Source: an uncultured Pelagibacteraceae bacterium | GTDB lineage: Bacteria; Pseudomonadota; Alphaproteobacteria; Pelagibacterales; Pelagibacteraceae | Length of the DNA: 64,000 nucleotides | Reading direction: 5' to 3' | Assembly (NCBI GenBank): GCA_902588965.1 | Contig: CACIRD010000001.1 | Span: 1 to 64,000 of the forward strand | In this document: positions 32,303 to 35,763 of the stretch, one piece after another | How positions within the stretch are numbered: the first letter of the stretch is position 1 | Layout of the letters: the number at the start of each line of letters is the position of its first letter | Notes under the pieces: model-generated | Database searches by the model: none | Seen by the model: only the letters and a program-made list of their open reading frames with translations | Told to the model about the DNA's origin: nothing | Program-made: the position numbers and the translations under genes

Positions 32303-34084
32303 TTGAATACTTATAGAACACATACTTGTGGTGAATTAACCAAAAAGGATTCAGGACAAACAGTTATTTTATCGGGCTGGATAAACAAGAAAAGGGATCA
32401 CGGAAACTTGCTTTTTGTAGATCTGAGAGACAATTATGGAATAACCCAATGTTTAATAGATAAGGAAAATAAATTTTTTAAAGATTTAGAAAAAATCCAA
32501 CTTGAGAGCGTAATAAAAGTATCCGGCAAAGTTAATGAGAGAAGTGAGGATACTTTAAATAAAGAATTAAAAACAGGAGAGGTTGAAGTATTAATAAATA
32601 CTTTTGAAATTTTAGGTAAATGTAAAGAACTTCCAATGCCAGTTTTTAGTGATCAAGAATACGCTGAAGATATTAGATTAAAATATAGATTTTTAGATTT
32701 AAGAAGAAAAAAAGTTCATCAGAATATCTTACTAAGATCACAAGTTATATCTTTTATTAGAAGTGAGATGATTAACTTAGGATTTAACGAATTTCAAACA
32801 CCAATTTTAACTTCATCTAGTCCTGAGGGAGCTAGAGATTTTTTAGTTCCGAGCAGATTAAATCCTGGAAAGTTCTATGCTTTACCTCAAGCACCTCAAC
32901 AATTTAAACAATTAATAATGGTTTCAGGTTTTGATAAATATTTTCAGATTGCACCTTGCTTTAGAGATGAGGATGCCAGAGCAGACAGAAGCCCTGGTGA
33001 ATTTTATCAATTAGATTTAGAAATGTCATTTGTAGAACAAGAAGATATTTTTGAAGTAGTTGAAAAGCTTATGTCCAAACTATTCAAAAAATTTTCTAAC
33101 AAAAAAGTTCTTTTTGATAAATTTCCAAAAATAACATTTGATAATTCGATGCTTAAATATGGAACTGATAAACCAGATTTAAGAAATCCACTCGAAATAT
33201 CTGATATTACAAAAATTTTTAAAAGGGATGATGTAAAATTTGATATATTTAAAAAGTTAGTAAAATCTGGTTCAATTGTTAGAGGTATAGTAACAAAAAA
33301 CACAAAAGGTAAACCTAGAAGTTTTTTTGATAATATAGATAAATGGGCAAAAGACCAAGGTGCCTCAGGTCTGGCATACTTTACTTTAGAATGTGAAAAA
33401 AATATAAGTGCAAAAGGACCTGTAGGAAAGTTTTTTTCAGAAGATTCACTTAAAGAAATTATGAAAATCACAAACGCTAAAATTGGAGACAGTTTATTTT
33501 TAGCATGTAATAAAAAAAATGATGTTTTGAAATTACTTTCAGCCGCAAGAGATAAAATTGCTGAAGACTTAGATATTATAAACAAGAATACTTTTGCATT
33601 TTGTTGGATTGTTGATTATCCAATGTTTGAAGTAGACGAAAAGACAAATAAAGTTATTTTTAGCCATAACCCATTCTCAATGCCGCAAGGAGAAGAAAAA
33701 AGCTTAAACTTTTCAAAACCACTTGAGATGAAAGCATATCAATATGACATTGTTTGCAATGGAATAGAGTTGTCCTCAGGAGCAATAAGAAATCATAAGC
33801 CAGATTTAATGTATAAATTATTTTCTATTGCAGGTTATACTAAAGAGGATGTTGATAATAAATTTGCAGGCATGATAAATGCTTTAAGTTATGGTGCCCC
33901 ACCACATGGAGGTATTGCACCAGGTATAGATAGAATAGTAATGTTGCTAGCTAATGAAAAAAACATAAGAGAGGTAACTCTGTTTCCCATGAATCAAAAT
34001 GCTCAAGATCTTATGATGAACTCACCCTCTGAAGTTAATGATCAACAGTTAAAAGAGTTAAATTTAGCAATTAAAAAGAAATAA
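32303..34084 (+). CDS. aspS: aspartyl-tRNA synthetase
   Basis: 593-residue class II synthetase: N-terminal OB-fold anticodon domain (TCGEL..., [13 protein letters not shown]), catalytic domain with motif 2 ([20 protein letters not shown] in pieces) and motif 3 ([12 protein letters not shown]), plus the bacterial GAD insertion (about 290-420). The only usable start is TTG at 32303, immediately after the hda stop; the family's usual 'RTH.CGEL' beginning follows it at once. Alphaproteobacterial enzymes of this type are often non-discriminating (also charging tRNA-Asn); that cannot be decided here. Confidence 0.96.
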
Positions 34085-34087
34085 ATA

Positions 34088-34927
34088 TTATTTCTTTCCC
34101 TTAAGGTTTATTCTGATATCAGACAAATCAACCATTTTTTTTTTATAATTACTTCGCACAAAACCTTTGCTTGTAATGTTTTTAACCAGTTTTAAAAACT
34201 GATTTTGATCGTCGTTATCGTAAATATCACTTTCTTTAGATTTATCATTTGTTGAACCAATCGAAGGAGTATGTGCTAAGTCTTCTCTATTTGAATATGA
34301 AATTGCTAATTCTCTAAAAATATAATCAAGCATAGATGAAGCGCTTAGAATTCTATCGTTACCGGTAACCTTTCCTGACGGCTCGAATTTTGTATCGACA
34401 TAAGCACTTACAAACTCATCCAGCGGAACACCGTATTGTAATCCCAATGAGACCGCAATCGCAAAGTTATTCATTAGCGCTTTTACCAACTCTCCCTCTT
34501 TACTAGTGTCTATAAAAATTTCTCCTATTTTACCATCTTCATATTCGCCCGTATGTAAATAAATTTTATGGTCACCAATTGTTGCTTTTTGAATATAACC
34601 TTTTCTTCTATCAGGCATACTAAATCTTTTATTAGCAACTTCAGTCAGTTTGTTCAAAAAAGTATTATTTTTTTCATCTAAAACTGGTTGGCTAGTTTGT
34701 TTTTCTGAGACTAAATTAATTTTATTTTTTTCATTTTTTTCAGGTACGTTTTTTGAATTTTTATCTAAACTTTTAGTTTTTCTATTATCCAATTTGACAT
34801 TTAAAATTTCAAACTTTCCATCATCTCTCTTTTCAAGATTTGAAAGATTCGTCTCATTTATGTCATCCAAGTAGTGACTTACTTTAAAAGTACAATTATA
34901 ATAAGTTTCTACTAAATATTTTGCCAT
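34088..34927 (-). CDS. orphan C-terminal (TSCPD) domain of class II ribonucleotide reductase
   Basis: A 279-residue protein. Residues about 105-215 closely resemble the C-terminal region of alphaproteobacterial NrdJ (adenosylcobalamin-dependent ribonucleotide reductase): [56 protein letters not shown] and [11 protein letters not shown]. The catalytic barrel (radical Cys, glycyl/thiyl loops) is absent, as is a C-terminal CxxC tail. Residues 1-55 are a different short domain ([33 protein letters not shown]). It diverges from NDUFA12. It could be a regulatory or assembly subunit for an NrdJ encoded elsewhere, or a free-standing TSCPD protein; function unknown. Confidence 0.75.
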
Positions 34928-35030: not shown

Positions 35031-35393
35031 ATGTTGACATTGTTTAAGCAAATTTTTGTTTGGTGGAATCAGCAGACATTAGGAACAAAAATTTACACTA
35101 TTTTTTATGGAAAATTAGTTGGTAAAGATGATTTTGGAAATAAATATTATGAAAACAGAAAATCAAAAAAAAGATGGGTTATTTATTCTGGAGAAATAGA
35201 TGCCTCGAAAATATCAAATGAATGGTATTCATGGATTCATTTTATGCAAAATAAAATTGATATTAGCATATCAAGTAAAAAATATGAGTGGCAAAAACCA
35301 CATATGCCTAATTTAACCGGAACAGAAAATGCATATCACCCAAATAAGAAAAATGTTGAAATTGAAAAAAAATATAAAACCTGGAAAAATTAA
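35031..35393 (+). CDS. NDUFA12-family complex I accessory subunit
   Basis: A 120-residue protein matching the NDUFA12/B17.2 family: WWNQQTLGTKIYTIFYGKLVG, DDFGNKYYENR, RRWVIY-like KRWVIYSGEIDASKIS, EWYSWIH and a Pro-rich PHMPNLTGTENAYHP tail. In alphaproteobacteria and mitochondria it is a peripheral subunit of NADH:ubiquinone oxidoreductase near the membrane junction. No complex I operon is in the window, as usual for this gene. The next gene, DUF2155, overlaps its 3' end. Confidence 0.92.
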   Translation: MLTLFKQIFVWWNQQTLGTKIYTIFYGKLVGKDDFGNKYYENRKSKKRWVIYSGEIDASKISNEWYSWIHFMQNKIDISISSKKYEWQKPHMPNLTGTENAYHPNKKNVEIEKKYKTWKN

Positions 35394-35763
35394 TTCAGTA
35401 TTATATTCTCTTATACTATTTTTTTTTCTCATAAATTTTTCGCAATCATCAGAAAAAAATTTAGATGGTAATTTTTTAGAAATAAAAGTATTAGATAAGG
35501 TTAGTTCTAAAAGCTACACTTTAAATATCAGAATAGGTGAGGAAAAGATTTTTAAAAATATTTTAATTAAGGCACTTAAATGTCAAAACTCAGAATTTGA
35601 TGATAGTCCAGAAATTACTGCTTATCTCCAAGTTAAAGATTTAAAAAGTAAAGATAAGAATGAAGTCTTCGTCTTTAATGGATGGACATTTTCATCAAGT
35701 CCAACATTAAGACCATTTGATCATCCTGTTTATGATATTTGGTTAACCAAATGTTTTATTTAG
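35353..35763 (+). CDS. DUF2155 family secreted protein
   Basis: 136 residues from ATG 35353 (an upstream ATG at 35329 is also in frame). An N-terminal hydrophobic signal (INSVLYSLILFFFLINFSQS) precedes the DUF2155 domain, marked by LEIKVLDKVSSK, ALKCQNS, VFNGWTFSSSPTLRPFDHPVYDIWLTKC. Two conserved cysteines (KCQN and TKCF) may form a disulfide in the periplasm. Function is unknown; linkage to NDUFA12 is characteristic. The gene overlaps NDUFA12 by about 40 bp and the convergent GT2 gene by 8 bp. Confidence 0.85.
   Translation: MLKLKKNIKPGKINSVLYSLILFFFLINFSQSSEKNLDGNFLEIKVLDKVSSKSYTLNIRIGEEKIFKNILIKALKCQNSEFDDSPEITAYLQVKDLKSKDKNEVFVFNGWTFSSSPTLRPFDHPVYDIWLTKCFI

Follow-up and report, generated by a model that had tools for sequence, protein, structure and literature searches.

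Class II ribonucleotide reductases (RNRs) end in a C-terminal region, termed CRD, that combines an IscU-like domain with a zinc finger (excerpts of PMC5704485 and PMC9669993). According to the former source, as excerpted, electron transfer is assigned to the cysteine tail of the enzyme, and the CRD governs an oligomerisation with dATP or dGTP; there are also indications of a third nucleotide site. For the IscU-like domain itself, the relevant extract of PMC9669993 gives no role reported as of 2022. A C-terminal region of NrdJ can also be encoded by a gene of its own, as in the split class II RNR of P. aeruginosa, where, in the excerpted account, NrdJb brings in the redox cysteines as the partner of NrdJa (PMC4520616).

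The window analysed here is a stretch of 64,000 nucleotides from an uncultured member of the Pelagibacteraceae. Members of the SAR11 group, whose genomes are streamlined, rank among the most abundant bacteria of the ocean. The window encodes a free-standing protein that retains the IscU-like half of the CRD, called TSCPD in Pfam, and from which the electron-transfer half is gone. The TSCPD domain and the split NrdJb are known; neither the SAR11 gene nor a reductase-dead NrdJ is reported in the open-licence PMC literature searched, among the matches listed.

A free-standing TSCPD protein and its modules

The gene occupies positions 34088–34927 (minus strand, open frame with an ATG start) and encodes 279 amino acids, which the initial annotation had read as a free-standing C-terminal domain of NrdJ, fused to a new N-terminal domain (residues 1–55) and with no reductase core attached. 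Each part of this reading is borne out. The TSCPD profile search, set beforehand as a check, gave a match, with Pfam family PF12637 covering residues 113–208 at 45.8 bits, above its curated cut-off of 22.8. The NCBIfam NrdJ model PRK07562, whose cut-off for a whole protein is 1737 bits, aligns to residues 61–267 with 221 bits and only at model positions 928–1132 of 1222, so just the NrdJ tail is present. RNR barrel and N-domain families yielded no Pfam match at E-values up to 1; the barrel family PF02867 is accordingly unmatched, and the finger-loop cysteine of the NxCxE motif is gone with the absent core. Residues 1–60 have no match in Pfam or NCBIfam.

By alignment, residues 99–222 and the beginning of the C-terminal tail derive from NrdJ. 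The tail starts opposite the SSQGYLR motif of NrdJ, at the point where NrdJ continues into its zinc-finger tail, and the CPEC...CLKC...GCS tail of NrdJ is missing. All eight of the eight intact NrdJ proteins have six cysteines within their last 75 residues; the SAR11 protein lacks this C-terminal redox array, and its sole cysteine, C12, lies in the N-terminal domain. The TSCPD family is named after a cysteine-containing motif that this protein does not possess, and as the domain (residues 99–222) has no cysteine at all, it is without ligands of the IscU/SufU type. Compared with the homologous C-terminal domain of alphaproteobacterial NrdJ (PRK07562, PF12637), the SAR11 protein is therefore without the core, the PF08471 domain, the zinc finger and the redox cysteines, and has in addition a new N-terminal domain and a C-tail. 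A PDB sequence search with the whole protein returned nothing at E-values up to 1. A profile search gave a sole match, of the C-tail to part of UvrA in PDB entry 4dfc (E 1.4), probably by chance, and a match of residues 27–127 to PF20817 (XopL_C, E 0.003), which falls below the cut-off of that family, was taken as chance as well. An Rfam scan of the window and of five loci found no element at its gathering score.

Five modules, all on the minus strand, can be distinguished. The N-terminal domain (residues 1–55, positions 34763–34927), described from an 18-sequence alignment, dN/dS and an AF2 model, is followed by a variable linker (residues 56–98, 34634–34762, mean identity 19%), the TSCPD or IscU-like domain (residues 99–222, 34262–34633), a second variable linker (residues 223–241, 34205–34261, mean identity 34%) and a conserved C-tail (residues 242–279, TSKGFVR...DLSD, 34091–34204). 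Across 77 sequences of the window's family, the median dN/dS is 0.036 for the TSCPD domain, 0.10 for the C-tail and 0.22 for the N-terminal domain, these medians being approximate since they rest on pairs with 0.05 < dS < 1.5 only (451 of 2926 pairs for the domain). The second linker has a median of 0.87 and the first, for which no median was obtained, a pN/pS of 0.95. Purifying selection acts on the three modules, strongly so on the TSCPD domain, and exempts the linkers. Between the window protein and 18 sequences from other genera, identity amounts to 83% in the domain, 69% in the C-tail and 51% in the N-terminal domain, next to 72% for the neighbouring aspS and 51% for NDUFA12 (BLAST local identities). 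The 23 NrdJ rows share 75 invariant positions, of which 62 are also invariant in 47 SAR11 rows and 13 are changed or relaxed there; at 20 positions SAR11 has become fixed for a residue other than the NrdJ consensus. The domain has thus been both retained and retuned.

Confidence in the AF2 model of the full-length protein is low overall (mean pLDDT 66, pTM 0.44) and good over residues 111–220 (blocks of 81–92); the linkers come out as unstructured (pLDDT below 50 at residues 56–87). Structural matches of the modelled TSCPD domain include IscU, SufU and CsdE, the best with a weak Z of 5.2 and an rmsd of 3.8 over 91 residues (1q48), and domains of lipoate ligase, PURA and flavoenzymes score like these; a Foldseek search against the PDB gave no match with E below 0.2. 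The IscU-like matches, weak when taken alone, agree with the description of class II C-termini in the excerpt of PMC9669993.

Modelled alone, the N-terminal domain is predicted to form a strand (residues 4–17), a helix (25–29) and a further strand (38–53) with a mean pLDDT of 86.7, and the model has no useful match among the folds listed. Thirteen of its residues are invariant in 18 sequences (E7, Y10, C12, F14, K15, H18, L20, R34, D36, G37, R49, K50 and T51). Nothing reliable on its source emerged from Pfam, NCBIfam, PDB sequences, the listed PDB folds or two scans of the class, which covered overlapping samples of 385 and 240 genomes. Over the N-terminal part of 18 family members there were three weak Pfam matches, in one member each, the best with E 0.046. 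At E-values up to 0.01 a profile of the domain had matches in six of the 385 genomes from the class. Five belong to the window's family; the sixth, G431 (E 0.0045), was discarded as a relative because the match falls in an unrelated protein. Weaker matches followed in G119, G191, G228 and G279 (E 0.03–0.09), and seven nrdJ loci of the sister family and other families contained no trace of the domain (best E 0.3).

A remnant of nrdJ at its ancestral locus

The homologue is widespread in the window's family. The window's own genome (1.14 Mb, 96% complete) has this one TSCPD gene; 58 of 61 near relatives have a TSCPD match, and within its own genus 34 of 37 genomes, itself counted, have the gene as a free-standing frame. 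Our sample of the order comprised 137 genomes, 84 from the window's family (f1, taken as Pelagibacteraceae) and 53 from a sister family (f2). A free-standing homologue is present in 80 of the 84 f1 genomes, in frames of 269–307 amino acids without exception, which makes the gene more than a chance frame, and in 10 of the 10 f1 genomes assembled as a single contig. The four without a match (G626, G650, G699 and G711) are rated 94–99% complete and lie in 20–30 contigs. The best 80 of 527 relatives are all SAR11 (Pelagibacteraceae, Pelagibacter or Pelagibacterales). In f2 the domain is found in 48 of 53 genomes, inside NrdJ frames save for those cut by contig ends; likewise all 24 near-relative genomes of that family match, within frames of about 1200 amino acids, the exception being a contig-end fragment (G053). 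Across a sample of the class, 248 of 385 genomes match and 137 do not, and together with the four f1 genomes this indicates that the domain is no general need of alphaproteobacteria; it may be dispensable even in f1, unless the four matchless assemblies have a gap there. Seven phage and 16 plasmid records also match, none covering 80% of the query; annotated features among the listed matches include class II RNRs, and many of the rows carry no annotation.

The surroundings of the gene place it in the slot of nrdJ. On one side lies NDUFA12 (35031–35393, plus strand, PF05071 at 80.3 bits), the complex I accessory gene whose adjacency the initial annotation had pointed out, followed by a gene for a DUF2155 protein (35329–35763, plus strand, PF09923). 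With its first ATG the latter overlaps the end of NDUFA12, and its real start may be later. On the opposite side lies the convergent aspS (32303–34084, plus strand, found by a Pfam scan from 32327). In f2 the order is DUF2155, NDUFA12, nrdJ on the opposite strand, aspS and Hda, the ends of nrdJ and aspS being separated by 1 bp at locus L144, and in f1 the free-standing gene sits in the slot of nrdJ in the same orientation. Among 113 f1 loci, some of which are one contig under two identifiers, NDUFA12 is found in 111, aspS in 113 and DUF2155 in 110; NDUFA12 and aspS both flank the gene in 111, the remaining two being short contigs, and likewise in 18 of 18 loci from other f1 genera. Elsewhere in the alphaproteobacteria, too, NDUFA12 adjoins nrdJ or what is left of it. 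The gene is therefore the leftover of nrdJ at its ancestral locus, from which the core and the redox/zinc tail have been lost and where the TSCPD domain has been retained, and the adjacency of NDUFA12 is an inheritance from that locus and by itself no functional hint. The intact NrdJ of f2, a family of the same order as f1, speaks for a loss in f1 that was separate; horizontal acquisition was rejected as unneeded, given a slot common to the sister family. The NrdJ at L144:5778-9362, of the alphaproteobacterial type, has at residues 290–363 a stretch resembling the N-terminal domain of YebC/TACO1 (Pfam PF20772, E 3.5e-5; NCBIfam PRK12378, E 1.3e-6; both below cut-off).

No NrdJ and no NrdJa-type barrel was found in the window's genome, in which the only barrel protein detected, 646 amino acids long (PRK09102, 1004 bits), is class I NrdA, followed by NrdB. 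This NrdA has its own CxxC tail (YEECLSCQ) and no Pfam match to an ATP-cone. Barrel matches in f1 (75 of 84 genomes) all fall in frames of 645–669 amino acids and never in an NrdJ of about 1200; in f2 they occur in 46 of 53 genomes, of which 43 are in frames of 1180–1218 amino acids, two are cut by contig ends and one (G655) is weak. Barrels of class I size and of NrdJ size occur together in none of the genomes of the order sample, and those without any barrel match (nine f1, seven f2) are all assembled in ten or more contigs. Class I NrdAB stands in for NrdJ in the f1 lineage, and the suggestion in the initial annotation that the protein might dock on NrdJ as an accessory or regulatory subunit finds no support: NrdJ was found neither in this genome, which yielded only class I NrdA and NrdB, nor among the f1 barrel frames. 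Nor did we find a complete NrdJ with its own copy of the domain and no phylogenetic link to the free-standing protein. At one of the 113 family loci, the TSCPD gene has, at a distance of about 3.8 kb, a class I nrdA (L048:1-1211) that is cut by the end of the locus and is 87% identical to that of the window's genome.

Reductase-dead NrdJ proteins in other lineages

Loss of the reductase with retention of the domain extends beyond SAR11. In the class sample, where frame lengths cover 243 of the 248 matching genomes (150 by subtraction, plus 13 and 80), NrdJ-like proteins with a shortened or decayed core occur in ten genomes from seven families (three in f28, two in f65 and one each in f101, f147, f152, f162 and f174). 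Ten is a minimum from one sample and gives no rate, since the NPCSE motif was read in the shorter frames only; some short frames were assigned to contig-cut fragments, as observed for G336 and G434. In the sequences read, the NPCSE finger loop is absent from all ten decayed proteins and from none of eight intact controls. Against NrdJ of f2, the ten have 18–34% identity over the alignable core and 44–80% in the domain; the corresponding values are 57–80% and 58–93% in seven of the intact controls, and in the eighth (L268) core and domain are about equal, at 57 and 58%. The zinc-finger CxxC pairs are missing in six of the decayed proteins, and in the other four the six cysteines are down to four. 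Nine of the ten adjoin NDUFA12 and DUF2155, neither of which was seen for G278, and all ten genomes have a large subunit with the size and match pattern of class I. Frames were taken from stop to stop and the true proteins can be shorter; the frame of G394 overlaps NDUFA12, so its protein must be much shorter than 984 amino acids. G338 and G243 each encode, beside the dead protein in the NrdJ slot and the class I-type large subunit, a further barrel protein (frames of 773 and 582 amino acids, respectively).

A second free-standing form was found in family f10 (three genomes), where a protein of 278 amino acids (L269) occupies the same slot beside NDUFA12. Its N-terminal stretch shows no relation to the SAR11 one (profile E 2.3); the two complete copies have a four-cysteine zinc ribbon without the last two cysteines, the third copy being cut by a contig end. 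A tree of the domain (121 columns, 81 rows with some duplicates, quick method) places SAR11 beside f25 (support 81) and not f2. On this tree, NrdJ must have switched between dead and intact at least five times; resolution is poor, with 41 of 70 inner branches open, and a single origin of the dead forms would be compatible with its strongly supported (starred) branches alone. The decay of the core with the domain kept in ten genomes, taken together with the free-standing forms, shows that the IscU-like domain outlives reductase activity.

Possible functions of the retained domain

The TSCPD piece probably has a separate job of its own in SAR11, which fits the remark in the initial annotation that the domain may have been reused for another purpose. 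That the gene is a decaying relic without function is hardly credible, although it is cut down from an enzyme now lost and four f1 genomes yielded no homologue: median dN/dS lies at 0.04–0.22 in the three modules, the frame is open in 80 of 84 genomes (10 of 10 among those assembled as a single contig), and the new N-terminal domain is conserved. A redox subunit that, like NrdJb, would reduce the active site of an RNR has a precedent in the split enzyme of P. aeruginosa (PMC4520616, as excerpted), but here the C-terminal cysteines are absent, a ground on which we rejected this role, no NrdJa-type barrel was found and NrdA has a tail of its own, which together make such a function very improbable. 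The structural matches to IscU (Z 5.2), SufU and CsdE, along with the IscU-like fold described in the extract of PMC9669993, could point to a carrier of sulfur or Fe-S clusters of the IscU/SufU/SufE type, or to a decoy of one; a Z near 5 is weak, however, unrelated folds do equally well and the domain has no cysteine, and we consider this unlikely, if less so than the redox role.

The reading we favour, tentatively and at somewhat less than an even chance, is that the nrdJ remnant remains under selection as a non-catalytic regulatory subunit, which most likely acts on class I NrdA/NrdB. Modelled on the behaviour of the class II C-terminal region with dATP and dGTP, it would be a nucleotide-responsive, oligomerising regulator that works in trans; the most likely target would be the class I enzyme, in whose NrdA no ATP-cone was matched, and the new N-terminal domain would serve as an adapter that provides a new contact. 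The regulatory role, the response to nucleotides and the partner are what we infer here, and the published oligomerisation data, as excerpted from PMC5704485, concern the whole CRD of a distant enzyme and not the TSCPD domain alone. The distance of more than 100 kb between the TSCPD gene (C1:34091-34927) and nrdAB (about C1:149992-152930) counts against a partnership with NrdAB. In its general form, held with the same reserve, the proposal is that the IscU-like TSCPD domain embodies a lasting function of alphaproteobacterial NrdJ, that of a nucleotide-responsive regulator or adaptor in trans, with NrdJ having become a pseudoenzyme in several lineages and having been pared down to the domain in SAR11 and one other family.

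Almost as likely is a job independent of RNR, for instance as an adaptor that binds nucleic acids or proteins, whether original to a bifunctional NrdJ or gained later. It would explain the retention of the domain in lineages whose reductase is dead or has disappeared. Outside the class, TSCPD proteins of about 135–152 amino acids are encoded ahead of DUF2924 and a large serine recombinase, in what looks like a single cassette, at four of five loci chosen for short TSCPD frames (L224:3996-6425, L226:3661-6075, L227:1618-4056 and L228:4223-6625, all from other Pseudomonadota; identified with Pfam at L224 and L228 and with BLAST at the rest); at the fifth, L225, the TSCPD gene has neither DUF2924 nor a recombinase within 8.2 kb. 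Like the SAR11 protein, the recombinase-linked proteins stand outside RNR, which suggests that the domain can work there, but they are distant in sequence, differ in context and may have another function. Against a job independent of RNR, an RNR to regulate co-occurs with the domain in 75 of 84 f1 genomes and in all ten with a dead NrdJ. Extracts of a Zymomonas paper (PMC10746277) and of an RNR phylogeny (PMC9531940) were of no help.

The locus amounts to a natural deletion experiment, in which the reductase has been removed and what stays is visible, and in which the function of the domain can be tested with a small protein in place of a big multidomain enzyme. Annotation by best match could mislabel this gene, or a dead NrdJ, as a B12-dependent reductase and so suggest a false need for B12. 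SAR11 has lost a vitamin B12-dependent enzyme for making DNA building blocks, yet a single non-catalytic part of that enzyme survives as a tightly conserved gene of its own.
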